From positions 1-64,000 of the forward strand of contig JANWYG010000009.1 of the NCBI GenBank assembly GCA_025057015.1: a DNA stretch of 64,000 bases, in the 5' to 3' direction. Below the pieces are notes generated by a model. That model ran no database searches. It saw only the letters and a program-made list of their open reading frames with translations, and was not told the DNA's origin. The translations under genes and the position numbers were made by a program. This DNA comes from Blastocatellia bacterium (GTDB lineage: Bacteria > Acidobacteriota > Blastocatellia > Chloracidobacteriales > JADJPF01). This document shows positions 4,616 through 62,315 of this stretch, piece after piece. The stretch's first letter is position 1. Every line of letters starts with the position of its first letter.

Positions 4616-7600
4616 TTACAGGTTATGCGTACTTCTCTTTCTATTCCAGCGTTCCTTGAGCATTACAAACAGCAACGGTAGTAATCCTAGGATACTCCAG
4701 GAAAGATGCAGCTTGCTTTCCTTTACAACTTCAGCCTGTGGTCCGGCACCGCCACTCTTTTTAGCATCCGGTCGGATGAAAGGACGAGCCTTTGCAGCTT
4801 CTTTCTTTATCTGCTCATCTGTCTTATCAGAAACCACTACGGCCATCCTATCCATCTCTTGCTTGTTGAAAGGACGTGAGCCACGACGATTAAATACAGT
4901 TAGCTGGTTACCGCTTTCATCTACCGCACGATCACGATCAAGGCCTTTAGAAATCGCCAGCGCTTTACCCTCGGTATGGTAAGTAGCTATCAATTTAGGT
5001 TTCGGTTTTGGGCTCCAACCATAGATATCTTCATTTGTATCAGGCCCAAACAGTTGTACCACCCGCAGGCCATTCTTACCATCAGCAAGATAGGCAAAAG
5101 CAGTATTTACCGTCATACCTACTTTGACATCGTGCGTATCATTTATCTCACCACCAGCATTATACACCTGATAAAGTTGAGGCTCTTCTGGCTTAAGCAC
5201 ATCGACTATCACAAGACCGTTTTTACCAGCAGCGATATAGGCGTAAGTACGTGCAACATAGATGTTATGAGCATCCTCTATCGGAAGCTTTGCCTTCTCC
5301 ACAGGTCTTGGCTTAGCCATATTAGCAATATTCAGTACCTTAAGCCCCTCGTCATCTACTACAAAAGCATACCGATATTGTACAGCGACAGCATGGGGAT
5401 TCTTCAAAAAAGGCTCGCCTATCTCAGCAGTAAGCTTCGGATCAAGCGGATTGCTTATATCGATTACGTAGAGGCCATGGTCGGTCGCCACATAGGCATA
5501 GTTGCCGGCTATGGTCAAGTTCATAGCACCTTTGAGCTTTCCATCAGGATTAAACGTCACTGCTCGACGAACAAAGTTGTTTCGCGGCTCTCCATCAAGC
5601 AACGTAGCCACTCCTGGGCCATCTTTTAGTATCTCACCCTTGGCTGTCTTCTTACGCTTTAACGTCGGATCAGCAGGGTTATTGCCAATAACTATGAAAC
5701 CTTCTTCTTTGTCCGTACCGTAGAGAAATGCATACACTAGCGAGATTGGCTGTTCCTCATTCTCAGGGAATCGCTGCCGTGTAGGATCTACTCCGAGCGT
5801 AGTAGGAGAAGCTATCGCCGTAGCATACTTGCTACGCACATAAAACTTTTGTCCAAGCGGAGAGACCGGAGCAGTGACTATCCGCTCAGAAAAGTCTTTG
5901 ACATCTATAGCATTTACATCATAAATACGAAAGCCACCAGTACCGTTTGCCGTATACAAATATTCTCCGCGTAGCTGCAGCGAACGTATTTCCGACCCAT
6001 TTGCCCGATGCTCATAGCGCTGGGTTTTAGGATAAAAACCTTCACCGTGAGGATTCTTCTTCAGCTTAGCATACTGCTTTGGATAAGCCAGCTCGTGCAG
6101 CTTACTTCCTATCACTGCCTGAGGTTGGTCGTGTTCGGTTACTGCTATCGCTTCAAAGCCATGATGACCAGTAGCTACGTACACGTATTTGTACATGAAG
6201 TTTACTAGATTCGTTCCCTGCATTAACACTTGTGCCATCCAAGCATTATTGTCCTTCGCTTTAGATAGATGGCAATCCGTGCAAGTTTTTGTCTCAGTCG
6301 CACGTACCGTATGCGGCACGAAAGTAGAGAAAGCCTGCCCCGAAAAACCCTCAGAAGATATGGTCTGCTGTTGTATATAGGTGAAGTTGCGGTTCTGATT
6401 CTGCGAATCAACCAGTATCGCACAACTAGAACGTGCCGGCGAGATTTTGTGTCCCATGACCGTACCATCTACTGCCAGAAACCAAATATCATCTCGCAAA
6501 GTCTGATAGTTATATTGAGTCCAGTTGCGAAAGTTATCTCGCGAATAACCCTCTTTTGACGTCCCCTCATTATGTAGCAACGGGCGGTTACGATTCGCTT
6601 CCATAGGCAAGTGACAACCAAAGCAACTCGTCGTCCAAGACGTATGACAGGCAAAACAGGTCATCTTCTTGTCCGAATGCGCAAGCACTGACTCACGCCC
6701 CGGCCGGTCAATATCATCCTTAGGATCCGGTACGTCACCCCAAGTACCGTCCGTACGATAGGTCTTAGCATAACGCGACTTGGGCTTATAGTCCGGGTGG
6801 TTTGGATCTATAGAGTCAAGCGTCTGAACTATCCGCCAGCGCAGTCCTTCGGTAACCATAGAGTTTTGATAAATATCTCCGGTCTTTTTATCTATCTCGA
6901 AGACCCGCTTACCAAAAGGAGTTCGAATCTTAGAGAGATCCAATCCTTTCTTGTTGATCACCTTGCCGTTATAGCGTCCTTGTCCAGCAGCCGGCCCGCT
7001 GGTTATCCCAGTCGCACGTTGGTAGATAGTACCGTGACAGTCTATGCAAGTAATCTCTATGGCAGCACGGGGTTCGGCATAAAGATTACCGTTGCCGTGT
7101 GAGTCACCTCGAAAGTGACAATCTACGCAATGCATTCCCTTTTCCAAGTGAATGTCACGTAACTGTACAACTTTTTTGAACTTCTCAGGATCGTTGAAGT
7201 CGATCTTATTACCGTCCTTATCCAATAGATTGCCATATCGATCTTGTTTATAGACAGCACGAAAGACCCAACCGTGTCCGTGAAAATCAGCAAACTGTGT
7301 ATGCTTGAGCTTGGGATTTACCTCTTTCCACAGTTCTATGAGAAACTCTTTATTCTGTCCCCATAGCCCCCTTATAGCAGAACCTTCAGGATTACGTTCC
7401 CGAATCTGTTCCTTTTCTTCGGCACTGAGATCTTCAGCTGGCTTTGCTCCCTTATACATATGCTCGCCATCAGTTTCGTTATCCCACCAGATATAACCAA
7501 AATAGCCAAGCAACATATTAGTTCCCGGATGAATATGACAGACCATACACTGGCTTGAAGGAATACCATTTGTCATCTGGTGTTTTATGGGATGTCCGGG

Positions 7601-8701
7601 CTCGTTCTTAGGTATAGTGGGATCAGCAGTATATGTAGTACCTCGATTACCATACTTGGCAAAACCTGCTGAATGAAAAGGATCGCGATCGTTTGCGTAA
7701 ACTACATGACATGCCGTACAGCCCGATGAACGATAGTCACCTGGTTGATCGTTCGTTCCTAAAAACGACAGCAGTGGGTCAAGCAGTCGCGTCTTCTGTA
7801 CGCCCTGAAAAGTAGGGTCGGTGCGTAGTTCAGTCCCAAATCCTCTCGAAGAGAGCTTTATATCTGGCTTACCCGGATCTTCTTCTATGTTCGGACTACC
7901 GATATCTGAAGGAAAGCCCTTCTCACCACCACCTCGCTCAAAGACCCGCAACACGTTTCCCGGATGAGTCGCTTCATACCGCGGCAGCGGGTTGAGATAA
8001 GGTATAACACCTTTTAGCCGTGTCTCTTCTGGTGTGGGCGGTGGTATTGTTTGTATACGTTGAGGCCTACCATCGATACTATAACTTTCACCAAAATGCG
8101 TGTTCTTATAAGGGAAAGCGCCGTTATTGTAAAATATTGCCCCCCAAAGCATCCCTCCATGCGTCATCATGCTCTTGCGAACCTGATAGACCTCCTGCGG
8201 ATGACAATTCGCCGTCCCACAACTGATTCCTGCAGCGCGTAGATCCCCAGGATTTATGAAGCGTACAAACTCAGGACTTTCTCTTAATATCAGAGCATTT
8301 GTCCTCTCGGGATTGCGTGAAGAGGGTTCTTTCAGATGTTTACCCCAAGCTTCCGGATAGCGTGGTTCGACATGCGCTCGTTTTTTAACTTGCTCATACT
8401 CGGGACTACCCTTAACCGCCCCAGGAGCTATCGCCGGCTCAGCATTGCCACCATGGCAGTCAGTGCATCCTATGCCAAGCTCAAAATCAGTAGGGTTTTG
8501 GTGCATCGACTCGGATCCCTCATGGCATGAAAGACAGCCTGCACTTTTGGGATCTTCTTTCTGTGACTTCTTCTTCTGCACCAGTGAAACAACAGAACTA
8601 TCAGCATTAGGACTAGAATTGAAAAGAAATACTATAGCTATCCATGCAACTGCTATCACAAAAGCTAGTTTGATATTTTCGCCGCAGCTTCTTGAAGTCA
8701 T
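4616..8701 (-). CDS. Decaheme-type cytochrome c with LVIVD beta-propeller
   Basis: The start is the ATG at 8701, with AGGAGA 8 nt upstream; an in-frame GTG at 8719 lies before the SD. A membrane segment (about residues 12-28, [17 protein letters not shown]) is followed by nine CXXCH haem motifs at about residues 56, 79, 328, 385, 525, 552, 682, 693 and 807. A tenth motif is of the CX4CH type (CGTANCH, about 161). Residues about 885-1250 form a beta-propeller with repeated LVIVD-type strands ([48 protein letters not shown]). A C-terminal hydrophobic helix ([14 protein letters not shown]) followed by basic residues would anchor it with the haem domain outside the cytoplasm. It likely carries electrons across the periplasm, partnered by the beta-barrel gene 20 nt upstream. 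I do not recognise a named family for the whole protein. Confidence 0.85.
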
Positions 8702-8721
8702 GGTCGCTTTCTCCTGCACTT

Positions 8722-10650
8722 CTAGTACGTAAAACGTATCGTAGCAAACAGGTTGAATAGAATTTTGTTGCCTGTTTCAATACCGCACAGCAATTGCCCT
8801 TTAGGCTTGCAATTGGACGTATAGATGGACTTGAACCCTTCACCAGGCTGAAATGCTGAAAAACCAGTGAATATAACGAAATTTTCGCTTAGATAAGGAC
8901 GATATCTCATACCTATATGATAGTCCGTGCCTAGATATTTCTCTATGTTAGGCTGAAAAAGGGCTAGTTCCAGCGGCTCAGTGCGCATAAATCTGATCAA
9001 ATTGACGTTGCTGATTATTCTCACTTTTTGAGTAAGATCAGCATCCATTCCTCCACCAGCCAAAAACAGCCCAGGATTGACATGATTAGCTTGTCCATGC
9101 ACTTTACTTGGGCGCAGAGCCGGTATAAGGCTTGCCGGAGTAGTAAGAAACGTAGTCGTGTTTAAAAACGGTATACCTGTATTATTAAGAAAGCTAAATC
9201 TACCACCGGCAAAGTTATTGTCGTCCAGGATCGAATCAAAGCCACGGCCTGTACCATCCGTAGGATTTCCGTCGCCAGAAGTATAAAAGAAGCTAGTACG
9301 TAGCCTTAGCCAGTCGCGATCGACTGAAAGTTCCGCCGCAGCAAGCTGTGCGTTGACGTCTATCTTCCGCCCCGCTAACCCATTAAAAGTATCTTCGCCG
9401 AAAACTTGATAAAACGCCGTACTCAAATTCAGTCCTCCACCTATCTTGCCAAATATCCACGGTAACCGTTCGCCAAAATGTCCATCTGTAGTCAGCCCTA
9501 TGTAATGAGTCCTAACACTGTGCGGTACTGCAAAACCAAACACCGCAGGACGCACCGGAAAACCGTTCCGATCGTTAAAAGGCTTGCTATTATCACGGTT
9601 GTGGTGATAGCTGACACTTACCGTATAGCCCTTTTTGAAAGTGTCCTGACGATAGATATTTGCTATGTAAACCTGTTGGTTCCTAAAGTTAAAGGTATTT
9701 AACCCACTGTTTGTATCCTTTTCTAATTGATGAAAAAACGCAAAATTAAACTGATAACGATTGCTGGCAAAGTTACCAAAAAGTCTAGCTCCTAGGTTCG
9801 TATCATTGTAAATGAATCCGCGAAAATCGCTGTTGAAAGTCTGTATGCCAGCACGAAAAGAAGTAGTGTCATAAAACGGGCTATGACCACCACGACTGCC
9901 ACGACCTCGCAAGAAAGGAAACACTCTAGGCGTATCACCAAGCCTGTATTCACCATAAAGTTCCTGCAATATTACGTGGCTATCTCGCCGAGTATTCCCT
10001 TCGCGCGGGTCTATGCGTAACACACCACGCTCTTCCGTATGAGCGTAGTTGATGTTGAACGCAAGCAAAGCGTGTATTCGAAAGTCTATTGGCTTGAAAG
10101 AATTAGCTCCCTGGTAGAAGTCAACTCCAGCCTTAAACGTCTGCGAAAAAGCAAACAGCTTACTGCGCCCGAAGAATTCCCGCGCGTCAGGACGTTCAGC
10201 ACTTATCAAGCTCGGTAGAGGTATTCGCTGAGCACTCAAGAAGGTCTCGCTCACTAGCTTGAGAGCAAGAAATTTGTCACGGCCTATGATGGGATAATCT
10301 CCTTTGAGAACGTTCTGTCGATAAGGATTAAGTGCCCGGCCCCTTTCAAACGGCAGATCAGCATCTGCACCAGGCACTCTATCCCAATTAGGAAAACCTA
10401 TCCTCCAGCGATCCTCAACTGGGATAAAGTCGCCCGACTCTTCCAATCTCTTCATTTCTTCCTTCGCCCAGTCAGGACTACTGGGATCCATACCCTTTAT
10501 ACCTGTCTTACGCCCTGAAAATCCTAGAGGCTTATTCTCATCTGTAGTCCAGGTCGCATTTGAGTTTCCTTCTCTCGAGTTTTTCTCCTGAGCAAGAGCT
10601 ACCTGAACCAAAAGAAAAGTCACTAATAAAAAAATCCAGACTATTTTCAT
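8722..10650 (-). CDS. Outer-membrane beta-barrel protein of the cytochrome operon
   Basis: A signal peptide ([20 protein letters not shown]) is followed by a region rich in alternating aromatic/polar strands and glycine-asparagine turns, for example [17 protein letters not shown] and [14 protein letters not shown]. The protein ends in [13 protein letters not shown], the aromatic C-terminal pattern of outer-membrane barrels. The first 100 residues contain a [14 protein letters not shown] segment. At about 640 residues it is the size of MtrB/PioB-like or alginate-export-like barrels, but I could not assign a family. It ends 20 nt before the multiheme cytochrome start, so the two are almost certainly co-transcribed. 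A porin-cytochrome conduit is the natural hypothesis. The ATG at 10650 (GAAGAG close by) is preferred over 10665. Confidence 0.75.
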
Positions 10651-10750
10651 ATCTCTTCGACCCATATTTTTGAAACTTAAACGCTATCTGAACCGCAATC
10701 CTAGCACTAAAAAAATCACACAGCAAACTTTAATTAAAACATCTTAAAAT

Positions 10751-10773
10751 TTGAAGAGTAAAAATTACTTCAA
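10751..10773. promoter_or_regulatory. Inverted repeat between divergent genes
   Basis: TTGAAG (10751-10756) is repeated inverted as CTTCAA (10768-10773) across an 11-nt AT-rich centre. It lies between the barrel/cytochrome operon and the divergent GlcG-like gene, a likely operator position. No known regulator motif is recognised. Confidence 0.3.
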
Positions 10774-10791
10774 TTAGTTACTTTTTAGACA

Positions 10792-10820
10792 TAGACAACA
10801 CTTTTCCTATGTGATACTTT
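10792..10820 (+). promoter_or_regulatory. Putative promoter of the GlcG-domain gene
   Basis: TAGACA (10792-10797), a 17-nt spacer and TACTTT (10815-10820) precede the ATG at 10858, with AAGGAG just before the start codon. The match is moderate. Confidence 0.35.
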
Positions 10821-10857
10821 GCTTCTATGAAGCAACCTTTTTGAATAAGGAGTACGT

Positions 10858-12981
10858 ATGACCGCGCATCGGTGGATGCCTATCCTAGGCCTTATCTTCA
10901 GCATTCTATCTATTAGCTTGTTTGACCATAGAGTATCTAGCAGCAATGTTTCTAATAGCACTGCTCCCAAGATAGATAGAGAGCGAACCATTTTTGACAA
11001 GAAAAGGCTGATCATCCGCGGGGAGAATTTCGAGCCAGGTTCCTTCATTGAGCTACGTACCTCCAATGACGAGAGCATATCAGCAAAAGGTCAAACCAAA
11101 GTCATAGACTCCACGACTATTATTCTCGAAGGCCTGAAAAGAGAGGACTTTCCAGATGGTACGGCAGTTATAACAGTTCGCAATGCAGCAGGTGAAGCCG
11201 TAACCGAGCACATAGCAGTGATACCAAGTGCAATCGGGCCTAGCCCACTTACAGTTTCCGACATACAGACCATAATAGGCCAAGCTGTAGCTGCAGCCCA
11301 GCGGTTTAGGGTTGCAGCTACTATAGCCATAACAGATCGAGAAGGCAACGTCCTTGCTATTTACCAGATGAACGGTGCAAATAAGCTGGTAGTGGTAAAG
11401 GACTTAGGGCCAGCAGGAAAAGGCCTTGAAGGTCTGGGCGGACCACAAGGGTTTGACGCAAAGAACACAAATCAACTAGTACAATCAGTCTTTGCTGCTA
11501 TTTCTAAAGCTGGTACAGGCGCATTTCTCAGTACTCAAGGCAACGCCTTTACTACTCGGACAGCCGCCTACATTATCCGCGAGCATATACCACCTTTTAT
11601 CCGCAACATGCCAAGCGGGCCGCTCTTTGGCGTGCAGATTTCCAATCTAGGCTGCAGCGACGTCAAGCTCCAAGGTCTACCGCTAGGACTTTCTGGCGAT
11701 CCTGGAGGGATACCTATTTACAAGAACGGACGAATGGCAGGAGGCCTTGGTATCGAACTGAACGGCATCTACACAGTAGCGCTCAACCGGCCTGAGGACC
11801 TGGGAAGAAAGCTAACCGAAAGCGATCCGCTCTTCTTCCAAGAGGGATTAGAAGAGATCATAGCCTTCGCAGCAGTACGTGGGTATGAAGCCCCGGACGC
11901 CATTACAGCAGACAAAATCCTAGTCAATGGCATCAGGCTTCCTTTCCGCCGGCAGTTTGACATTCCCTTAGTAACTGCTGACTCCTTTAACCGCCTGCCA
12001 GGAAAACTGTTACCACTACCAGGAGAAAACACTCCTCGCATTCGCACCGGCGTTCCTACAGAGTTCAGAGACATCACTCTGCGCGGGCGTCCCGTGCGGG
12101 TAGTGAACCGTTTCTTTCCCTTTAGAGGTTCTCGTACGGGTCTATCCGCTGCTGAAGTCGAACAGATACTTTTTCAAGCTTTAGTCGAGGCTAACCGAGT
12201 CCGCGCTGCCATCCGTCGGCCTCTTGAAGTACCTGCAGAAGTTAACATAGCTGTAGTCGACTTCGACGGCAACGTGTTAGGTCTTATCAGCACTCCTGAC
12301 GCCCCAGTGTTTGGGTTTGATGTATCGTCTATGAAAGCTCGTGCCGCAACTACTTTTAGTCGTCCCGACGCCGCACAGCTACTTACCACGATAGGTCTCG
12401 GCAAGTACGTAAAGCGTGTGCAAGATGAAGGCCTACTTCTCAACGGAGCTTATGCCATTACTAGTCGTGGCATCGGCTGGATGCACCGTCCGTTCTATCC
12501 TGATGGTATACAGAATGACCAAAGTAGCGGTCCTGGTCCTCTTTCTGTTGGCCCTGAAGAATTTAGCCCGCTCAATAATGGTTTCCAGACCGACTACTTA
12601 CTACTAGGTCGCAAGGACAACAACCCGCTGTCCATAGTTATACTCCGTAGCGTACTGAATGCAATGAAGCTTGCAGGCGATCCAAAGAACAACTTTAAAG
12701 ACCCAAACTTCTGTGATGCCTCAAACGGGCGAACTCGAACCAATCTATTTAACAACGGCTTGATGATCTTTTCCGGAAGCAGTCTTCTCTACAAAGAAAA
12801 CCGCCTGGTAGGTGCAATAGGCATTAGCGGTGATGGTACTGATCAGGACGACATCATTTCTGCATTTGGGAGCGAAGGTTTCGAAGCACCACCAGAAATA
12901 CGCTCCGACAGGTTTTTCATGCGCGGTGTGCGCATCCCCTATACCAAATTCCCCCGCCACCCACATCTAGGAGAAGAATAA
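10858..12981 (+). CDS. Secreted protein with two HbpS/GlcG-like (haem-binding) domains
   Basis: The 707-residue protein has an N-terminal signal-like segment (MPILGLIFSILSISLF). A short IPT/Ig-like beta domain follows at about residues 40-120 (KKRLIIRGENFEPGSFIELR). Two DUF336/GlcG-type domains come next: one from about residue 131 (LTVSDIQTIIGQAVAAAQRF, then ATIAITDREGNVLAIYQM) and one from about 430 (LSAAEVEQILFQALVEANRV, then VNIAVVDFDGNVLGLIS). GlcG/HbpS proteins bind or degrade haem in other bacteria. The secreted location and divergence from a multiheme cytochrome operon suggest haem scavenging, sensing or cytochrome maturation, which is inference. The start is set by AAGGAG 5 nt before the ATG. 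Confidence 0.75.
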   Translation: MTAHRWMPILGLIFSILSISLFDHRVSSSNVSNSTAPKIDRERTIFDKKRLIIRGENFEPGSFIELRTSNDESISAKGQTKVIDSTTIILEGLKREDFPDGTAVITVRNAAGEAVTEHIAVIPSAIGPSPLTVSDIQTIIGQAVAAAQRFRVAATIAITDREGNVLAIYQMNGANKLVVVKDLGPAGKGLEGLGGPQGFDAKNTNQLVQSVFAAISKAGTGAFLSTQGNAFTTRTAAYIIREHIPPFIRNMPSGPLFGVQISNLGCSDVKLQGLPLGLSGDPGGIPIYKNGRMAGGLGIELNGIYTVALNRPEDLGRKLTESDPLFFQEGLEEIIAFAAVRGYEAPDAITADKILVNGIRLPFRRQFDIPLVTADSFNRLPGKLLPLPGENTPRIRTGVPTEFRDITLRGRPVRVVNRFFPFRGSRTGLSAAEVEQILFQALVEANRVRAAIRRPLEVPAEVNIAVVDFDGNVLGLISTPDAPVFGFDVSSMKARAATTFSRPDAAQLLTTIGLGKYVKRVQDEGLLLNGAYAITSRGIGWMHRPFYPDGIQNDQSSGPGPLSVGPEEFSPLNNGFQTDYLLLGRKDNNPLSIVILRSVLNAMKLAGDPKNNFKDPNFCDASNGRTRTNLFNNGLMIFSGSSLLYKENRLVGAIGISGDGTDQDDIISAFGSEGFEAPPEIRSDRFFMRGVRIPYTKFPRHPHLGEE

Positions 12982-13037: not shown

Positions 13038-16000
13038 CTAGAAGGTATAGCGAACGCCGAGCTGTATCGCCATCGGATCACTTAGAGTGGTTGAAAGCAG
13101 GTACTTACCGTCATTACCACGGATGCGACGGAAGACTGAGGAAGGCGGCTGATAGACCGGACGTCCACCTTGTATTATAGTACCAGGCCCGAAAATGAGA
13201 GCAGGTCCGCCAGCTTGTGGGTTATCGAAGTTGAACACATTGAAGAACTCGGCCGAAAACGTTACCTTGCCCTTCTCACCCGGCACGTTAAATGCCCTCT
13301 GTACTCTGAGGCTTGCGTCAGCAAAGCCATAATTCCTGAATGTATTTCTCCTGAGCACTCGACCGTTTATTATCGCACGGTCACTGAATTGTCCGTCACG
13401 GTTTACGTCCGCACCAACATTGCCGCTAAATGGCCTAGCAGAAGCCAGCCTTACTATACCTGATATTTGAAGGCCATAGGGCAACTGGAAAGCACCGTTG
13501 CTTGTAAACTGATGCCTCTGATCTATACGTGAAAAACCAAACTCGTTTGCCAAGTCATTCGCGTCATCATACTGTATTCCAGCAAAGTTGCGCTCATTAT
13601 CATCGTCAGAGTAGTTACCCGAAACAGTGTAGTAAGCGTCAAAGACATACTTCGGACGACGAACGTTTAGCGAGAGCGTAGCAGCTCTATACATTGATCT
13701 AGCCGAAGCTTCTTGTATACGCACTATGCTGAAGCGTGGATCTGGACGTGGGTTGGAATAGATATTTCGCCCAGTAGCGTCTTTGACTGGTAAAGGCAGG
13801 TTTACGTCTCTGAGCCTCTCAGCCTGAGTAGTATTGATATACTGAAAGTTAATACCAGCTATGATCCCTTCCGAGATCTTGTAGTCAGCGCTGACGTTAA
13901 ACTGTGTAGCGCGAGGGTTGCGGAAGTTTGGATCGAAGAAAGCTACTACCGGAGCACCAAGTGGCGTCTTAAATAGCTGTGCAAGCTGAGCTTCAGTAAA
14001 CGCCGGCAAGTTTGACAAACTGGCTTTTGACAAGTCAATGCCAACGGTCCTGAATGCATTATTGATATCGTTAAAGCTGTTGAGCACTATGCTGAACCCC
14101 CGCTCTGGATTACCGCCGTTATTCGTGATAGCCTGGTTAAACAGCAACAGTGGCGTGCGTGCTACAAAGCGTCCAGCACCCATACGGAGCACTAGTTTAC
14201 CCTTGCCCTGCACATCCCAAGAGACACCAAATCGCGGTTGGTATTGTTTTAGATCGTCAGAGATTTTGGTAGCACCAGGGAAACGACGCTCTGGAGCAGT
14301 AGCTGGCAACAAGTCCGGATTGAACGTACCTTCATAGCGAAAACCGAGATTAAGCGTTATATTCGGCCTGATGCGGTACTCATCTTGGACGAAAAACGCT
14401 AGTTCTTTCTGCGCGGCAGTAAACTTGCCGCTACCTACGAACTGGCGAAATTGCGCAGGTCTGCGAGCAGCCCAGTCCGCTAGCGAGTTGAAGGTATAAA
14501 CACCGGGATTATCACCGCGGAAGATCTGGTCGACGAAGACTCGATTGAAGTCAAAGCCAAACTTCGTCGTATGGCCAGACCAGATATACGTAGCATTGTT
14601 AGACACTTGATAGCGATCGTCGAACTGAGTTATAGGTAAGAAAGCCCGTTGACCATAGACACCTACTAATGCACCGGCATTACGAACGTTGACTTCTGGG
14701 CCTGTAGCGTTGTTCACACGTGGTCGCTCTTCATAGGCATATTGGAAACGAAACTCGTTCAGGAAAGTGTTTGTGAAAACGGAGTTGAGCTGAATGACCG
14801 TAGTATAGGTTCGATTGCGCTCCGTACCGTTATTTGAAAGCGCTCTATTAGTGAAAAGCTCTATACCTCCACCGGCAGAGGTAGCATTTTCACCTGTATT
14901 GTTAGAAAAGTTAAACCTACCTGACAGCGTGTGATTATTGAACATTCTGTGGTCGATACGGCCAAGTATTGCCTGAGCGTCGTTCGTTTTGTTAAAAGGA
15001 CCTTCTTTTGCGACCGATACGAACAACTGCCCAAGCTCAGTATTCCTCAGGTTCTGCACGTCTAAGGCAGTGTACTTAACCTGAAGCGGCTCAGTTGCCT
15101 TCTGGATATCGACAGCAGTGAAGAAGAAAGTTTGGTTCCTTTTGATCGGCCCTCCCATAGATCCGCCAAACTGCTGTTGCCGGCCTACAGGCTTTCGACC
15201 TAGAGCATCCTCCATTTGAAGAGCAGCATCACGGATCAAGTAAAATACTGAGCCATGAAACTCGTTTGTACCAGACTTAGTGATAACATTGACGACACCG
15301 CCGGTGGAACGGCCAAACTCAGCAGAAAAGCTATTACGAGCTACTTGGAATTCCTGTATAGCCTCCTGACTTACGGTAAACGCAAAACCTGCTCGTTCAC
15401 CGCCGCGTATACCACCGAAGAACGGCTGGTTGTAGTCAGCTCCGTCGATGTTGATGTTGATGTTTATTCCGCGCTGACCTGCAATAGAAAGCCCATTGCG
15501 CTCAGGCTCTATAGTCACTGTTGGTGTAAGCAGCAAGAAATCCTGAAATCTACGTCCATTCGCAGGCAAGTTCTGTATCTGCTGAGTATTAATTATAGCC
15601 TGGGCGGAAGAACGCGTCGGTTCAAGAGTAATGCCCGTAGTCTGTGATGCACTGATTTCGACTACATCGCTTGTAGCACCAACTTTCAACGAAAAACTGG
15701 CATTAATTGAGCTCCCAAGGGTAACAAGTACCTCCTGAGCTGCTGCTTCAAATCCACTTGCAACTACTTTTATCTCGTACGGGCCTACGGGCAATAGCGG
15801 CACAGCGTACCGACCAGCCTCATCAGTAGTTGTAGTACGAGTGTAGTTGGTATCCTTGTTCCTTACCGTCACCTCTGCGCCGGAAATAGCAGCGTTTGAG
15901 GTATCGGTCACCTGCCCGACGATCTGCCCACCAGTAGCCTGTGACTGCGCCCAAAGGGGTGTCACAAACAAGGCAAGCCCAGAGAATACCAAGACCGCCG

Positions 16001-16052
16001 ACACAGTTAAATGACTGATAGGCCTCAGCCACGCCTTAGCTGATCCGTTCAT
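13038..16052 (-). CDS. Oar-like TonB-dependent outer-membrane receptor
   Basis: AGGAGG stands 7 nt before the ATG. After a signal peptide ending near ALFVTPLWAQS comes a carboxypeptidase-regulatory-like (CnaB-type) domain (GGQIVGQVTDTSNAAISGAE to about residue 125). A plug domain follows, with LPANGRRFQDFLLLTPTV and EFQVARNSFSAEFGRSTGGV, and a long 22-strand barrel region ends in the outer-membrane signature LGVRYTF. The length (1004 aa) and architecture match the Oar/CarboxypepD_reg TonB receptors that are expanded in Acidobacteriota and used for uptake of oligomers or other large ligands. No TonB box is obvious. The gene stands alone, convergent with the GlcG-domain gene, so the ligand cannot be inferred. 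Confidence 0.9.
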   Translation of the reverse strand: MNGSAKAWLRPISHLTVSAVLVFSGLALFVTPLWAQSQATGGQIVGQVTDTSNAAISGAEVTVRNKDTNYTRTTTTDEAGRYAVPLLPVGPYEIKVVASGFEAAAQEVLVTLGSSINASFSLKVGATSDVVEISASQTTGITLEPTRSSAQAIINTQQIQNLPANGRRFQDFLLLTPTVTIEPERNGLSIAGQRGINININIDGADYNQPFFGGIRGGERAGFAFTVSQEAIQEFQVARNSFSAEFGRSTGGVVNVITKSGTNEFHGSVFYLIRDAALQMEDALGRKPVGRQQQFGGSMGGPIKRNQTFFFTAVDIQKATEPLQVKYTALDVQNLRNTELGQLFVSVAKEGPFNKTNDAQAILGRIDHRMFNNHTLSGRFNFSNNTGENATSAGGGIELFTNRALSNNGTERNRTYTTVIQLNSVFTNTFLNEFRFQYAYEERPRVNNATGPEVNVRNAGALVGVYGQRAFLPITQFDDRYQVSNNATYIWSGHTTKFGFDFNRVFVDQIFRGDNPGVYTFNSLADWAARRPAQFRQFVGSGKFTAAQKELAFFVQDEYRIRPNITLNLGFRYEGTFNPDLLPATAPERRFPGATKISDDLKQYQPRFGVSWDVQGKGKLVLRMGAGRFVARTPLLLFNQAITNNGGNPERGFSIVLNSFNDINNAFRTVGIDLSKASLSNLPAFTEAQLAQLFKTPLGAPVVAFFDPNFRNPRATQFNVSADYKISEGIIAGINFQYINTTQAERLRDVNLPLPVKDATGRNIYSNPRPDPRFSIVRIQEASARSMYRAATLSLNVRRPKYVFDAYYTVSGNYSDDDNERNFAGIQYDDANDLANEFGFSRIDQRHQFTSNGAFQLPYGLQISGIVRLASARPFSGNVGADVNRDGQFSDRAIINGRVLRRNTFRNYGFADASLRVQRAFNVPGEKGKVTFSAEFFNVFNFDNPQAGGPALIFGPGTIIQGGRPVYQPPSSVFRRIRGNDGKYLLSTTLSDPMAIQLGVRYTF

Positions 16053-16324: not shown

Positions 16325-17779
16325 ATGAGCCTTAACCCTTCGGTAATTTTCGGCTTGAAGCTCAAGAAATTTCGAGAGATGCGAGGGCTGACAATCACGG
16401 AATTTGCGGCTCTGTGCGAACTATCTCCAATGTATCTTACCGAATTGGAAAAGGGATCAAAGTACCCAAAGCCCGACAAAATTCATCGTATCGCCAAAGC
16501 ACTAGGTAGAAGCTACGAAGACCTAATTTCACCTAAACTCACTGAAGAGTTTGCTCCGCTGGAAGACTTTTTAAATTCACCTATACTGGCCAACTTTCCC
16601 TTTCACTTGTTTGGCATATCTCTCAAAGACCTTGTAGATATGCTAACTCGTAGCCCAGCACAGGTTTCTGCGTTGCTCAAAGCGCTGCTAAATATAGCTG
16701 AAAGCCATCATCTACAACTCGAGGATCTATTCCGTGTAGCCCTGAGAGCATATCAAGAAAGCAAGCTAAATTACTTCGAGGATATAGAGGATGCTGTAGA
16801 GGAGCTCATCCGGAATTATGGGCCAAACTCTAGCCTCGAACACTTAAATAAACTGCTAAGAGAGCTTTACGACTATAAGATAGATTTCGAACATTTGAGC
16901 AGATATCCAGAGTTACTCATCTATAGGTCCGTTTACCTCGACCTTAGTTCCCCTCGGTTGCTCGTCAATCCTGCGTTGAGTCTACCACAAAAGCGCTTTG
17001 TTTTAGCCAGAGAGCTAGGCTATCAGTTTTTAGGCCTGAAGGAACGTGCCTGGACTTTCGTCCCGGAACAAGCCAGCTCATTTGAACAGGTACTGAACGA
17101 TTTTAAAGCATCTTACTTTGCCGGAGCACTTCTCATAAACAAAGAGCAGATACTGGCTGATCTCAAAAGGCTGTTTGAGATGCCGAACTGGGACTATAGA
17201 GAGCTACTTGCGCTAGTAGAAAAGTATGATGCGACACCGGAGATGCTTTTTTACAGAATAAGTGAACTAGTACCAACTTTTCTCGGCTTGAAACTACACT
17301 TCTTGAGATACAATTTTGAAGAAGGACAGATCCGATTAGTAAAACAGCTCAATACAGCACATTTTACCGTCGGTTTGAGCATGAGCGAGCACCACTGCAG
17401 GAGATGGGCAGTGTTACGCTACCTCAAAAAGCTTGCTAGAGAGGTTGGAAAAAAAGGCAGATATATTTTTGCAGGAGCGCAGCTTTCGAAATTCGTGGAT
17501 TCAGAAAAACAGTTTCTATGCCTTAGCATAGCAAGCAGCTCACCGCTAAGACAAGGTACGCTGTCGAGCGTTGCCATCGGACTTTATCAAGACGAATCGC
17601 TAGAACGACAGGTAAAGTTCTTAGCAGACAAAACCATTCCCAGAATACAGGTAGGAACGTCCTGTGAAAGATGTCCTCTGAGGGATTGCCAAGAAAGGGC
17701 AGCTGAAGCTACAGTTTTATTAAATCTAGAACAACGGCGTAAGAGAATTAATTTACTGAAGCTATTGCGACAAGAATGA
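16325..17779 (+). CDS. XRE/IrrE-type regulator, ScfR/RamB-like
   Basis: Residues about 8-65 form a Xre-type HTH (LKKFREMRGLTITEFAALCE, SPMYLTELEKGSKYPKPDK). The central region corresponds to the IrrE/ImmA-like (M78) domain, but the zinc motif HExxH is degenerate (ARELGYQFLGL). The C-terminal third resembles the DUF2083 domain of short-chain acyl-CoA-responsive regulators (RamB, PrpR, ScfR). It keeps the conserved Cys cluster CERCPLRDCQER, which may bind an iron-sulfur cluster. Those relatives control propionate, glyoxylate or fatty-acid metabolism, and no such genes are adjacent here. It begins a four-gene forward cluster and overlaps the next gene by ATGA. Start context is weak, so the N-terminus is inferred from the HTH position. 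Confidence 0.75.
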   Translation: MSLNPSVIFGLKLKKFREMRGLTITEFAALCELSPMYLTELEKGSKYPKPDKIHRIAKALGRSYEDLISPKLTEEFAPLEDFLNSPILANFPFHLFGISLKDLVDMLTRSPAQVSALLKALLNIAESHHLQLEDLFRVALRAYQESKLNYFEDIEDAVEELIRNYGPNSSLEHLNKLLRELYDYKIDFEHLSRYPELLIYRSVYLDLSSPRLLVNPALSLPQKRFVLARELGYQFLGLKERAWTFVPEQASSFEQVLNDFKASYFAGALLINKEQILADLKRLFEMPNWDYRELLALVEKYDATPEMLFYRISELVPTFLGLKLHFLRYNFEEGQIRLVKQLNTAHFTVGLSMSEHHCRRWAVLRYLKKLAREVGKKGRYIFAGAQLSKFVDSEKQFLCLSIASSSPLRQGTLSSVAIGLYQDESLERQVKFLADKTIPRIQVGTSCERCPLRDCQERAAEATVLLNLEQRRKRINLLKLLRQE

Positions 17780-55787: not shown

Positions 55788-56771
55788 CTATTCTAACTGC
55801 TTTGCAACCACAGGAAACTCGATCACCTTTATCCTCTCGGAAAAAGCTCGATCTAAAAACAATTTTCTAGAAAGCTTTACACGCACAGCTCTTACAGTAT
55901 CTATCCACTTCTCATCTGGTAATATGGGCGTACTATAGATACCAGTATCAGTTACGTATTCTATAGACATACCGTCCAGCTTGCCTATCAAACTATCCTT
56001 GCCCCCTCTCACTACTACACCGTGCACAAGATCGTAAGCTAAAACACCACCTTCGTTCCTAAAAACATATAGCCCATCGGCTCTTCTCACTGCATATACT
56101 ACCGACAGCTTTGGCTTAATTACAGCACTACCTGCCGCAAAATTTATAGTAGGAGTAACATTCCTAAGCTGAGGCAAATCAACGCCACAGCTGCCAGTAC
56201 CACATAAGTCATAGATCAACTCAGCTGCAGCTCCAACTTTAGCTAGAGACTTCAGTCTCACAACCCTTGCAACTAGCCCTTCCTCGACAGAACCCCTGCC
56301 TACGAGCAGTACAAGATCATGTTCATGATAACCATCAGAGGAGTCTACAGCAGTAGCTCGTCCTCTACCATCTTTTCCATATACCTCGCTATCAGCAATC
56401 AGTTCCAGCCGAGGAGCCCCCCGAGAAGCATAAAGTATTACAAATCCATCGTTACCAGCTATTTTGAGCGGAGTAATTACCCCCAACCGGAACGGTTTCA
56501 AACTCGGTATTTCGAACAGTGGTAGCTTTGGAAAAGCATCTCTGCCAGCAGTTTCGTCATATGCAGCAATCCCTCTGCCCGGCAAAATACCTACCAGCTG
56601 CGCAAACGATTGCTCGACAGCAGCTAGTTCGCGCTCAGCTTGAATTAAAACCTCTTGCCGCTTATGTACTTGCAAGAACTTTTGATAAAGCTCACCAGTC
56701 GCTGCCAGCAAAATTCCACCTATGAAAACCACTAACAGCACTTCGAGCAAGCTGACACCTTTCTGACACAT
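55788..56771 (-). CDS. PilW-like minor pseudopilin
   Basis: Prepilin signal QKG followed by VSLLEVLLVVFIGGILLAAT with Glu at +5. An amphipathic helix follows (RQEVLIQAERELAAVEQSFA), then a large beta-rich C-terminal domain of about 260 residues. The size and last position among the minor pilins match PilW/GspJ. Minor pilins form the tip that initiates pilus assembly. Starts 7 nt after the PilV-like gene; AGAGG precedes the ATG. Confidence 0.8.
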   Translation of the reverse strand: MCQKGVSLLEVLLVVFIGGILLAATGELYQKFLQVHKRQEVLIQAERELAAVEQSFAQLVGILPGRGIAAYDETAGRDAFPKLPLFEIPSLKPFRLGVITPLKIAGNDGFVILYASRGAPRLELIADSEVYGKDGRGRATAVDSSDGYHEHDLVLLVGRGSVEEGLVARVVRLKSLAKVGAAAELIYDLCGTGSCGVDLPQLRNVTPTINFAAGSAVIKPKLSVVYAVRRADGLYVFRNEGGVLAYDLVHGVVVRGGKDSLIGKLDGMSIEYVTDTGIYSTPILPDEKWIDTVRAVRVKLSRKLFLDRAFSERIKVIEFPVVAKQLE

Positions 56772-56778
56772 AAAATTA

Positions 56779-57249
56779 TTACCTCTTTACACCTTCGATC
56801 TTTGAAGCCCTAGCCAGCCTCATAATACCGCGCCGTTCTAAACAAACTACCGAGACAAAAGCCTTGATCTCGCCAGCTGAGGTGTCTCTTACAAGCATCC
56901 ATTGCCGAAGAAATTTAGCCTCACTCTTTGCTTGTATTCCACTTACAGGCTGACCTCTGTCATCCAGCAAATCGTAATACCCATCCAACACTGGCGCCGG
57001 AGCTATTGAACCAAGTTTGTTGACCTGCGTAGGAAACCTAGAAAAAGCTTCTCCTGCTCCCCTAATCACCTCAGAAGCTTTAGACTGCGACAAAGTCCCT
57101 ATGCCAGCTAACCTCGACACAAATTTTCCGCTCTGTACCGCCGTAGCACTCAGCCGTAACCAAGTGACGAAAGCCAGCATTACGAGAGTCAAAGCCACAA
57201 GATACTCCACTAGCGAAAAACCATGCTTAAAGTCAGAGTCTAACTTCAT
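56779..57249 (-). CDS. PilV-like minor pseudopilin
   Basis: The signal KHG followed by FSLVEYLVALTLVMLAFV with Glu at +5 and a 156-residue length fit PilV/GspI. GGAGG lies 6 nt before the ATG. It is a predicted tip pilin assembled with its PilW- and PilX-like neighbours. The C-terminus (VSVVCLERRGIMRLARASKI) is basic. Confidence 0.8.
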   Translation of the reverse strand: MKLDSDFKHGFSLVEYLVALTLVMLAFVTWLRLSATAVQSGKFVSRLAGIGTLSQSKASEVIRGAGEAFSRFPTQVNKLGSIAPAPVLDGYYDLLDDRGQPVSGIQAKSEAKFLRQWMLVRDTSAGEIKAFVSVVCLERRGIMRLARASKIEGVKR

Positions 57250-57261
57250 GACGCGCCTCCA

Positions 57262-58332
57262 CTAGTCAAAATTACTGCCGATGTCCACTACTTTGATTAC
57301 CGTGTTCCAAGTATACCCTCCCAACCGCCTGGAATCTCTATTACCTCTAATCGCAACAGAAAAACAGCCGCTGGTATTGTGTGTATCTTCAGGAATAGAA
57401 TTAGCTACAAGTAGGAATCCCAGTCCTGGAGCAAGAGTAAGACAAAACTGGTCTTGATAGTTAGAATCTAGGCACGTAGCTAAATTACGTTGACACTCTC
57501 TAGAAGAGCACTCTCTCTGAAAGCACTCGCTACCAGGCATACAAAGCTCTGGTTCACGACAATTTGTGTCTCCGGGCGTGCCCTCTAGAGTCTCACATTT
57601 GACAACAAACGGCATCGGCATTTTCTTCAACAAACTGCCTGTCCTAGGACAGCTTACTACTCCAGTGGTAATGGAATCAAAAGTGTATAGATTGGTTACC
57701 ACATCGTAATAGACCACAAAACGTTTGTTCACATCATAGTAGGTACGTGCATCAATATCTGCTCTGATCATCCACCGATAGCGCTCTACTCTTGGCCTTC
57801 CTCGCTTTCTCTGCTCTAGCCGCACCGCTTCTTGCACTAATTCTTTAGAGACAAATACACCTTTCAGGGCATAATCGTACGAATTCCTGGTCTCGCGCAG
57901 TATTTCTCTCCACTCAGGAGTCAACAACAAATTAGGATCATCGGGCTTCAAAGCGGTAACATCATCTATAGTCTGGCCAGTCTTACCCCGTAATCCATCC
58001 AAAATGCCCGCTGGATTGCACAGCGATGATTGCTCACTAAGCGGAGTCTCAGAAGTAACAGCCGTCTGACAAAAATAAGCATCACCTCGTAACTGCTTAT
58101 CTATATGGTCGCGAACATCTCTCTCTATAGCAGAGTAAATATGTTCCTCTATATGAGTTCTTACTGCAGTGGCTACAGACAACCCAAAACCATCCGACCA
58201 CCGTAGCGCTGACTCCAAGTTAGCATCAGCAAGCCTAGTGCCCGTATAAATCAGAACCTCAAGAATCAACACCGTAACTACTACCCATAAAAACAGTACC
58301 ACTATCACTAATCCAAAACCGTCCTTCTTCAT
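57262..58332 (-). CDS. PilX/GspK-like cysteine-rich minor pilin
   Basis: The N-terminus KKDGFGLVIVVLFLWVVVTV resembles PilX/GspK, which lack a strict Glu+5; no acidic residue is at +5 here. The 356-residue protein has twelve Cys, with ten packed into the last third (for example CMPGSECFQRECSSRECQRN), suggesting a disulfide-rich knob exposed at the pilus tip. The Cys-rich block has no family match I recognise. It is flanked by GspH-like and PilV-like genes with gaps of 12-14 nt. Confidence 0.7.
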   Translation of the reverse strand: MKKDGFGLVIVVLFLWVVVTVLILEVLIYTGTRLADANLESALRWSDGFGLSVATAVRTHIEEHIYSAIERDVRDHIDKQLRGDAYFCQTAVTSETPLSEQSSLCNPAGILDGLRGKTGQTIDDVTALKPDDPNLLLTPEWREILRETRNSYDYALKGVFVSKELVQEAVRLEQRKRGRPRVERYRWMIRADIDARTYYDVNKRFVVYYDVVTNLYTFDSITTGVVSCPRTGSLLKKMPMPFVVKCETLEGTPGDTNCREPELCMPGSECFQRECSSRECQRNLATCLDSNYQDQFCLTLAPGLGFLLVANSIPEDTHNTSGCFSVAIRGNRDSRRLGGYTWNTVIKVVDIGSNFD

Positions 58333-58346
58333 AATTACCTCTACTT

Positions 58347-58805
58347 TTAGAAACCGCCGTCCAGCTCGGCAATTTGCATATATCCTTCTTTACTTACTAA
58401 GACAGCAAAACTGCGCTGATCACTTACTACAAAGAAGGCATGGTTATCAGCTAGCTTACCCGAATACACTTCGAAGGTAACGCTCTTTTGTGGTCTATAG
58501 CAAAAAGTCATTTCACCAATGCAAAGACAATCAAGACGACAGTTGCTATTTGGCAGTCGCGTCACTATCTTAATGCCAGGCGTATCAGGAAGATAGGATA
58601 TGTCAAACGTTCTGGCCTCTATGCTACTGCTACCTGATAACGCTTCTCTACGTGCAACCGATAAACTGTTGACTATCTGAGCAGCAACTTTCCGCGCGTC
58701 AAAACTCAATTTGCCGCGCGTCATGTTTACAGTGACTGCTACTGCAGAAATGGCGATTACAGCAATAACCAGCAAAATCTCTATTAGCGAATACCCTGTC
58801 TGCAT
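58347..58805 (-). CDS. GspH/FimT-like minor pseudopilin
   Basis: Prepilin signal MQTG followed by YSLIEILLVIAVIAISAVAV with Glu at +5, then the FimT/GspH-typical KVAAQIVNSLSVARREAL helix and a beta-rich C-terminal domain. ATG 58805 has GGAGG upstream; the earlier GTG 58811 overlaps the pilC stop. It begins the minor pilin block. Confidence 0.85.
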   Translation of the reverse strand: MQTGYSLIEILLVIAVIAISAVAVTVNMTRGKLSFDARKVAAQIVNSLSVARREALSGSSSIEARTFDISYLPDTPGIKIVTRLPNSNCRLDCLCIGEMTFCYRPQKSVTFEVYSGKLADNHAFFVVSDQRSFAVLVSKEGYMQIAELDGGF

Positions 58806-58807
58806 CC

Positions 58808-59941
58808 TCACCTCCCAGCTAGGCTACCAACAGCAGCACTAAGACCCGAATAGTAGGAAATCACAATCATACCTACTATGATTCCTGCAGCTATCATCAT
58901 CACTGGCTCTATCAGCCTCACAGTACGATCAATGCTCTGATCAGCCTTCTCAAACAGCTGTAGCGCGTAGCTCTGCAATGTAGAACCCAGCTTTCCATTC
59001 TTCTGAGCACTGGCTATAACCATATATACCTTTCCATCGAAAAGTGGATGCGAGGTTCTGAGACATTCGCAGAACGAAATACCGTCATACAATTTTTCGC
59101 GAGCTTTTTTTAATCCTTCCGCTACTTCCTGATTACTGCAGCTTTCTGCGGCCACACCAAGTACTTCCTGCGGAGTTAAACCAGCAGAAAAAAGCATTCC
59201 CATAAGCCATAAAATCTCGCCTAGAGTCAAGTTGACAAAGATCCTGTTGAGTGGACTCACTCTCAGTTGCAATCTTGCCAGAAACTTCTTGCCCTGAAGC
59301 GAAGATAAATAGTTGTTCACTGCTGCTGCTAAAGCTGCCGAAGCCACTAGAAACACCCACCAGTGTCGTTCTACTAATTCACCTAAGGTAATTAAAGCCT
59401 TGGTCATAAAACTTATCTCTTTAGCACCTAGCTGCAAGAGTACGCTCTTGAGAGCAGGTAAGATATAAAATGCAAAGGCTGATATTGTTATTACGACGGC
59501 CAAAAAAACTAGAGCAGGATAAGTCATGCCTGAAATGACGCGCTCTCTTATACTACTCCTTCGCTTTATATATAACGCGATCATATCCAGAATTCCGTCA
59601 TGAAACTCCCTGCCATCAAACCTACGGGTCCACTTGCCAGACTTCTCAGCAGCCCTTATCAGTGCGCAGTACTCCTGACTGAAAACACCTGGATATGCCC
59701 GCATAGCTTCACTAAGCATCTGACCGTTTTCTACTGAAGAAGTAAGCTTCGACAAAACTTCGGCTAGATGCCTATTCGAAGTACCCTGTCTAAGCATCCT
59801 AAGAATCTGATTTACTGGAATACCTGCTTCATAAAGATCTCTAAAACTCTCGGTGAAAACTATAAGCTCGTCATCCTTCAGCTTATAGTTACTCTCGTCT
59901 GCAAGACACACTTTCCCCTTTCCAGGATTAAAAACCCTCAC
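58808..59941 (-). CDS. pilC: PilC/GspF inner-membrane platform protein
   Basis: Two tandem GspF domains: FTESFRDLYEAGIPVNQILR with SGKWTRRFD in the first, and LWLMGMLFSAGLTPQEVL with AQKNGKLGSTLQSYALQL in the second. Three helices are visible (MTYPALVFLAVVITISAFAF, WWVFLVASAALAAAVNNYL, MMIAAGIIVGMIVISYY). It anchors the assembly ATPase at the cytoplasmic membrane. GTG 59941 with AAGGAGG 6 nt upstream is preferred to TTG 59947, which abuts the SD. Confidence 0.93.
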   Translation of the reverse strand: MRVFNPGKGKVCLADESNYKLKDDELIVFTESFRDLYEAGIPVNQILRMLRQGTSNRHLAEVLSKLTSSVENGQMLSEAMRAYPGVFSQEYCALIRAAEKSGKWTRRFDGREFHDGILDMIALYIKRRSSIRERVISGMTYPALVFLAVVITISAFAFYILPALKSVLLQLGAKEISFMTKALITLGELVERHWWVFLVASAALAAAVNNYLSSLQGKKFLARLQLRVSPLNRIFVNLTLGEILWLMGMLFSAGLTPQEVLGVAAESCSNQEVAEGLKKAREKLYDGISFCECLRTSHPLFDGKVYMVIASAQKNGKLGSTLQSYALQLFEKADQSIDRTVRLIEPVMMIAAGIIVGMIVISYYSGLSAAVGSLAGR

Positions 59942-59952
59942 TTTCAACCTCC

Positions 59953-61767: not shown

Positions 61768-62315
61768 TGCAACGACTCCTTCTTAGCTAAGAATGCAGAG
61801 GCATTTATATAAGCTCTAACAGTGAGGGTTGGTTGCTGCTCTTGCTCCTGCACTAACTTTATGCTATTTACCCTCAGGATACGCTTGAAACGGGAAAAAT
61901 CTTCTACAAAGCGGCTCACTGCGTCATAGTAGCCCAAAACTTCTACCTGTATTTGTATTTCCTTGACAACACCTAAATCTATGGACTTCGAGCTTTGAGA
62001 AAAATATTCAAGCTTTAGTCCTCGATCAGCAGCACGTGCAGCAAGCCAGCTAAGTATCTCAGGTAGTTCAGCTTCCTGAGGAATAAGCGGGCTGAGTGAT
62101 TGGTAGATTTGCTTGGTTCGACGTAAAGCTGCTTCTAGCTCTGCAGAGTTCTTTTGCAGACTTTCATTCGCGTCATTTTCGGCTCGCTTCTTATCTACCT
62201 CTGTCTTCTTTAGCCTGAGCCTGCCGCGTTCTGAAGACAAATAGACAGCCTCGGCCAGTTCTATGATAGAAAAAGCAACCAGTATCGATATACAAATAGA
62301 CACTATCAGCCTCAT
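61764..62315 (-). CDS. pilO: PilO-like alignment-complex protein
   Basis: A short N-terminus and one helix (LIVSICISILVAFSIIELAE) are followed by a coiled coil (KKTEVDKKRAENDANESLQK) and the PilO ferredoxin-like domain (LKLEYFSQSSKSIDLGVVKE, GYYDAVSRFVEDFSRFKRI). The 183 residues are a normal length. It bridges the inner-membrane platform to the outer-membrane secretin with PilN and PilP. ATGA overlaps with both neighbours. Confidence 0.88.
   Translation of the reverse strand: MRLIVSICISILVAFSIIELAEAVYLSSERGRLRLKKTEVDKKRAENDANESLQKNSAELEAALRRTKQIYQSLSPLIPQEAELPEILSWLAARAADRGLKLEYFSQSSKSIDLGVVKEIQIQVEVLGYYDAVSRFVEDFSRFKRILRVNSIKLVQEQEQQPTLTVRAYINASAFLAKKESLQ

Follow-up and report, generated by a model that had tools for sequence, protein, structure and literature searches.

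A decahaem cytochrome-propeller fusion, an AlgE-like barrel and an HbpS-like protein: candidate outer end of an electron-transfer system in Acidobacteriota, Planctomycetota and Rokubacteria

Porin-cytochrome conduits such as MtrCAB, PioAB and MtoAB place multihaem cytochromes beside an outer-membrane barrel; the barrels of the MtrB/PioB family are large, with about 26 strands. In Acidobacteriota, which are among the commonest soil bacteria, MtrCAB has been reported in a few Acidobacteriia (PMC8805035) and clusters of the MtrB/ExtB type in Holophaga (PMC7399161); for wastewater members of the phylum, the substrates of most multihaem cytochromes are unknown (PMC8100337). Here we describe a locus of another kind from a Blastocatellia bacterium (GenBank assembly GCA_025057015.1), lying in positions 1-64,000 of contig JANWYG010000009.1, forward strand; this 64,000-nucleotide stretch is referred to as the window. 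It encodes a decahaem c-type cytochrome fused to a beta-propeller (CYT), an outer-membrane barrel (BAR) and, divergent from them, a secreted HbpS/GlcG-like protein.

We see about an even chance, judging from the sequences, that these three products form the outer end of an undescribed trans-envelope electron-transfer system. The system itself is real, widespread and apparently undescribed: no account of it was found in the open-licence literature on cytochromes with LVIVD repeats, on HbpS in company with multihaem proteins, on fusions of propellers to cytochromes or on conduits in Acidobacteriota. It probably works like a porin-cytochrome system, and it falls outside every family tested. The original prediction, made from the window alone, had singled out CYT and BAR as possibly such a system and had overlooked the third core partner at 10858-12981.

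The cytochrome, its barrel and their conservation

CYT is encoded on the reverse strand at 4616-8719, an open reading frame of 1,367 amino acids counted from a GTG. Its start is likely instead the ATG at codon 7 (position 8701), which sits behind an AGGAG and 20 nt past the BAR stop; measured from this ATG, the 20-nt spacing originally given for the two genes is correct. The haem domain covers residues ~59-820 (6260-8545, reverse strand) and carries the ten motifs previously counted, namely nine CXXCH (residues 62, 85, 334, 391, 531, 558, 688, 699 and 813) and one non-canonical CX4CH, CGTANCH, at residues 167-173 (8201-8221, reverse strand). All ten sites are complete in 21/21 homologues from the class and in 54/54 wider homologues spanning three phyla; among the latter, the third site reads CX4CH in 36, CX2CH in 17 and CX3CH in 1. 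Ten histidines outside the motifs (116, 376, 380, 397, 482, 524, 541, 681, 716 and 803) are likewise invariant in the 54, so that a second histidine is available for every haem, and 48 of the 54 have a Met-His after haem 1. The simplest inference is that all ten haems are bis-His ligated and serve pure electron transfer; one haem with an open coordination site is possible. No CXXCK-type motif was seen on inspection of the CYT sequence. The invariant motifs, together with an export-type hydrophobic helix at residues 15-33 (8621-8677, reverse strand; by hydropathy either an export signal or an anchor), identify CYT as a multihaem c-type cytochrome.

Residues ~905-1295 (4835-6007, reverse strand) form an LVIVD-type beta-propeller, matched by Pfam PF08309 with an E-value of 8.7e-24 and 83 bits against a gathering score of 20.2. 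As CYT exceeds the 1,200-residue limit of the folding step, the complete homologue L064 was folded in its place; its AlphaFold2 model has a confident C-terminal propeller, so that both score and fold agree with the propeller first read from the sequence. The haem region of this model, built without haems, is helical and of low to moderate confidence, and Foldseek returned generic propellers only, hence nothing informative on the haem domain. Apart from LVIVD, the Pfam scan of CYT gave weak multihaem models; a direct sequence search against solved structures gave no match, and a profile search gave only short stretches of octahaem nitrite reductase (E 6e-5) and NrfA. Hydropathy also places a C-terminal helix followed by a basic tail at residues 1336-1354 (4658-4714, reverse strand). 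Both of the terminal helices described in the original prediction are thus present in the window protein; the C-terminal one is limited to part of the Blastocatellia and is missing from the Terriglobia and Planctomycetota homologues, and an anchored C-terminus is not a general feature of the family.

BAR, at 8722-10665 on the reverse strand, has a signal peptide and may start at its second ATG, at 10650, which was the end coordinate of the original prediction. No sequence match to it was found in Pfam, NCBIfam or the PDB, and a profile search against solved structures was likewise empty. The AlphaFold2 model, built on an alignment of 46 homologues (mean pLDDT 80.5), has 18 long strands, and its best Foldseek match is AlgE (E 1.6e-15, target-normalised TM-score 0.67, 11% identity); at the level of fold, BAR is an 18-strand barrel of the AlgE type. 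The alginate-export family PF13372 is weakly matched by 5 of the 46 homologues (best E 3.1e-5) and not by BAR itself. In six loci (L028, L033, L036, L037, L039 and L040) the barrel bears a fused N-terminal tetrahaem, c3-like domain, and in most Terriglobia a carboxypeptidase-regulatory-like N-terminal domain (27 of the 46 homologues scanned). Second copies of BAR, on contigs with no CYT match, occur in two close relatives (G002:C52:133974-135788 and G003:C251:11762-13555).

CYT is found in 39 of the 58 Blastocatellia genomes of the class set, and BAR in the identical 39 and in none of the other 19. (The count is of strong matches; a larger tally of 43 takes in four weak partial matches, in G020, G024, G028 and G049.) A wider scan of one genome per species, covering 84,980 species, gave 380 relatives; the best 80 of these were kept and are labelled Acidobacteriota, Rokubacteria and Planctomycetota, so that the phylum limit set by the original prediction was too narrow. 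Within Acidobacteriota the labels are Blastocatellia, Terriglobia, Bryobacterales and Acidiferrales, and one of the Terriglobia is the isolate Granulicella aggregans; across the phyla, the carriers are bacteria of soils and hot springs. One relative, L062, is labelled Betaproteobacteria, perhaps through a binning error. In a scoring of 79 loci with a readable CYT, BAR lies immediately 5' of CYT on the same strand in 67, under a 700-bp adjacency rule and often with a 4-nt overlap. In five more it is upstream and either beyond 700 bp or overlapping more by the call of the reading frame; the remaining seven comprise four contig ends (L085, L101, L102 and L107), two loci in which no BAR was detected (L108 and L119) and one with BAR on the opposite strand (L092). 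Since the pair is kept in at least three phyla, chance association is excluded, and CYT-BAR is a conserved system and not a local oddity. The parts, the invariance of haem sites and histidines, the linkage and the co-occurrence given below are all established at the level of sequence.

The HbpS-like partner, the electron module and other genes

The HbpS-like gene lies on the forward strand at 10858-12981, and its product matches Pfam PF03928 (E 1.8e-18, 67.3 bits against a cut-off of 25). HbpS itself binds iron. The intergenic region at 10666-10857, between this gene and the divergent BAR-CYT operon, likely carries the promoters of both units, judging from the gene layout. An HbpS-like homologue is found near the pair in 50 of 81 sequences clustered by neighbour family (the 80 loci and the window), and where its orientation was scored, in 49 loci, it is upstream and divergent in 43. 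A signal resembling that of lipoproteins stands at the start of some homologues, judging from L051 and L062. In the class set the gene is present in 38/39 genomes with CYT and 0/19 without; across a phylum set of 396 Acidobacteriota genomes searched by profile at E <= 1e-40, in 44 of the 46 with CYT and none of the 350 without. Fisher's exact P-values are 2e-14 for the class and 2e-56 for the phylum, both ignoring shared ancestry. The gene was also present in all 12 CYT-bearing genomes reached through other loci, Planctomycetota and Rokubacteria included, some of them with a non-adjacent copy. Presence and absence alternate inside genera (G043 against G028; G030 against G041; G045, G345, G407 and G413 against the rest of g13), and in the Chloracidobacterium-like G006 the HbpS-like gene (C2:409972) and the gene for f3, discussed below (C1:2013357), are distant from CYT (C2:722360); co-absence is therefore not due to the loss of one contig. 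By these sequence criteria the HbpS-like protein is an almost obligate third core partner.

In five of the loci (L028, L033, L036, L037 and L039) the genes after CYT encode 4-, 8- and 9-haem cytochromes (h4, h8 and h9), and next come a gene termed f3 and, where the locus is long enough, f5. The source genome keeps these genes at three loci apart from CYT: f5 and f3 are adjacent at C4:42604-48331 (L135), h8 and h9 lie with an FHA-GAF-nucleotide cyclase gene at C14:166740-170355, and h4 is at C16:119652-120155. The f5 product reads as an FHA domain, a transmembrane helix, seven haem motifs, a second transmembrane helix, a 4Fe-4S domain and an FAD/NAD(P) oxidoreductase; f3 joins a cyclic-nucleotide-binding domain to a 4Fe-4S domain and a transmembrane bundle. 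In this bundle two invariant pairs of histidines, 634/648 and 816/830, are each spaced by 14 residues, the predicted pattern of two stacked b-haems. Together, f5 and f3 have the appearance of an oxidoreductase, as yet uncharacterised, between NAD(P)H and periplasmic cytochrome, and cyclic nucleotides may control it. The cyclase that adjoins the 8- and 9-haem cytochromes (L133, C14:168715-170355) has relatives near the cytochrome operon in other genomes, which fits the cyclic-nucleotide-binding domains of the module.

The f3 gene follows CYT in the class as the HbpS-like gene does (38/39 genomes with CYT, 0/19 without), although 4 of the 38 matches are weak, cover only the cyclic-nucleotide/Fe-S part and represent an alternative module. 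This latter, common outside the Blastocatellia, consists of a NuoEF-like diaphorase, a HoxU/NuoG-like Fe-S protein with a cyclic-nucleotide domain, a transmembrane protein, a decahaem protein and a c554-like tetrahaem protein. Its transmembrane protein, of 306 amino acids with His 81/95 and 285/299, is present in 21/22 CYT-bearing genomes outside the class against 8/350 genomes without CYT. No quinone-reactive subunit was recognised among the parts of either module in an inspection that was not exhaustive.

Elsewhere in the window, 13038-16052 encodes a large barrel of the OMP_b-brl_4 family that starts with a carboxypeptidase-regulatory domain and resembles a TonB receptor; it stands beside the system here and is not conserved there in most relatives. 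A regulator with HTH_3 and IrrE-like (Peptidase_M78) domains follows at 16325-17779. The DUF1559 (SBP_bac_10) protein at 574-1428 is prepilin-like, bears a methylation motif at its N-terminus and belongs to a family associated mainly with Planctomycetes. At 55788-63790 the genes resemble, in sequence, a cluster for assembling type IV pili or a type II secretion system (a GspE/PilB-like ATPase with PilC-like and PilM/N/O-like proteins).

A possible pathway and its rivals

If the parts act as a chain, the flavin/Fe-S module would oxidise NAD(P)H on the cytoplasmic side of the inner membrane, and the two stacked b-haems would carry the electrons across it. Periplasmic multihaem cytochromes might then take them and hand them to CYT, an order that we infer. 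The decahaem region of CYT would serve transfer and its propeller would dock a partner; acting together with BAR and the HbpS-like protein, CYT would deliver electrons to an acceptor at or outside the outer membrane, for which soluble Fe(III), Mn, humics and a shuttle are candidates. Ten haem sites and ten further histidines, all invariant, fit bis-His electron-transfer haems and support a trans-envelope route, and the association of the pair with further cytochromes of the multihaem type and with an inner-membrane module linked to NAD(P)H is the arrangement expected of such a pathway. A fuller proposal, which we offer only tentatively, is of a quinone-independent pathway from NAD(P)H to the outside, conserved among Acidobacteriota, Planctomycetota and Rokubacteria of soils and hot springs, in which cyclic-nucleotide-gated Fe-S/b-haem proteins feed a new outer-membrane terminus made of the AlgE-like barrel, the decahaem-propeller protein and the HbpS-like protein.

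Several observations weigh against electrons leaving the cell by this route. The lumen of an 18-strand AlgE-like barrel is far narrower than that of MtrB, so a cytochrome sheathed in the pore in the manner of MtrAB is doubtful; going by its model, BAR probably lacks the width to hold a haem wire. CYT has no lipobox that would place it on the surface, and the C-terminal helix, in the Blastocatellia homologues that have it, would keep the protein membrane-held on the periplasmic side. Many hosts of the pair look like aerobes, and the source genome, with NrfHA, alternative complex III and a cluster of oxidase genes, has ordinary respiratory outlets. (In the C7:128605-139000 region, L136, the alternative complex III-like cluster includes a pentahaem protein, a MoCo-like subunit and NrfD-like subunits and is followed by oxidase subunit genes.) The original prediction of trans-envelope transfer is supported in part, by the linked cytochromes and the inner-membrane module; the barrel is no MtrB-like sheath. 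BAR might instead pass a shuttle or soluble acceptor, hold CYT at the membrane, or serve CYT as a periplasmic reductase.

The last of these is the main rival: BAR would admit a soluble substrate, which CYT would reduce in the periplasm, with no electrons leaving the cell. Candidate substrates are oxyanions such as selenite and tellurite, nitrogen oxides and organic acceptors. AlgE, whose fold BAR shares, is a solute channel, the CYT haem domain is remotely related to ExtM and ExtN of a selenite/tellurite cluster and weakly resembles octahaem nitrite reductase in a profile search, and the porin ExtI is required for the reduction of selenite and tellurite and not of Fe(III) citrate (PMC5877670). 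The source genome also has a second pairing of an AlgE-like barrel with a multihaem cytochrome (L134, C5:15494-18686), in which a barrel of the AlgE family (PF13372, Pfam E 4e-62) lies directly upstream of NrfH-NrfA, suggesting that such barrels serve periplasmic haem enzymes. We nevertheless think this explanation unlikely: the invariant histidines suffice for six-coordinate haems and, with no CXXCK-type motif, leave no obvious active site, while the extra secreted partner and up to about 30 more haems suggest long-range transfer. It seems improbable that the system serves iron or haem acquisition, with NAD(P)H driving the reduction of ferric or haem iron at the surface and the HbpS-like protein as the binder of haem or iron. 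The pairs of histidines in the inner-membrane proteins follow a pattern typical of ferric reductase and NADPH oxidase bundles, and the HbpS/PduO-C/GlcG fold is known to bind haem (PMC4923194); yet no recurrent siderophore, haem-uptake or Fur-type neighbour is among the conserved gene families, and so many haems would be a costly route to iron. Least probable of all is that the chain runs inwards, oxidising extracellular Fe(II), Mn(II) or reduced humics for NAD+ reduction or respiration. Porin-cytochrome conduits can do so, PioAB among them (PMC6831781), and the pyridine-nucleotide and Fe-S modules would be at hand, but electrons passing from an NAD(P)H flavoprotein to haems run downhill in the outward direction, and no link to RuBisCO or lithotrophy was seen, though none was sought.

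Whichever function applies, a three-gene core with a defined inner-membrane module, gained and lost together, is a concrete and testable candidate system. Were electrons indeed to be delivered outside, porin-cytochrome transfer would be extended to another class of barrel and to an entry point that is linked to NAD(P)H and apparently free of quinones, in groups rarely counted as electroactive.

Comparison with described systems

No model of the Mtr, Pio or Omc families reaches its cut-off, in keeping with the novelty first claimed for the locus. CYT scores 14.8 bits against a cut-off of 192.2 for the MtrA/DmsE-type model TIGR03508, and no MtrC/OmcA model is among its matches listed; neither BAR nor 45 homologues match the MtrB_PioB Pfam family, and the best 50 Foldseek matches of the 18-strand BAR, headed by AlgE, include no MtrB. 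The likeness to MtrCAB, PioAB and MtoAB is one of arrangement, a barrel gene beside a decahaem cytochrome gene with periplasmic cytochromes linked. AlgE and the other alginate-export barrels (PF13372) remain the best structural match of BAR, which differs from AlgE in its low identity, in the lack of a Pfam match and in being fused or linked to haem proteins.

Two other groups of clusters resemble the locus in part. In Verrucomicrobia, also environmental bacteria, a porin that is not of the Mtr type adjoins multihaem cytochromes, these being eight-haem periplasmic proteins and the porins having at least 20 predicted strands (PMC5615132); the two are set apart by description only. An operon of SEEP-SRB1, Geobacter and their relatives likewise ties a propeller to multihaem cytochromes, of 16 and 26 haems, with a proposed role in electron transfer (PMC5539420). 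There the propeller is separate and six-bladed, and is accompanied by a prolyl isomerase and no known porin; here an LVIVD propeller is fused to the decahaem domain and occurs with a barrel.

The closest known relatives of CYT, remote as they are, are ExtM and ExtN of the Geobacter cluster extHIJKLMNOPQS, whose models show detectable homology to its haem domain. As an ExtM, CYT was rejected: NF040943 gives 65-84 bits over short stretches against a cut-off of 800, and ExtM has 12 haems and, by description, no propeller. No ExtH rhodanese, ExtI porin or ExtKL is among the recurrent neighbour families listed, and BAR is unrelated by Pfam to the phosphate-selective porins. Both systems cluster a porin and multihaem cytochromes with an inner-membrane cytochrome b and an Fe-S protein (PMC5877670); unlike ext, the one described here has the propeller fusion, the AlgE-like barrel, the HbpS-like partner and the NAD(P)H modules.

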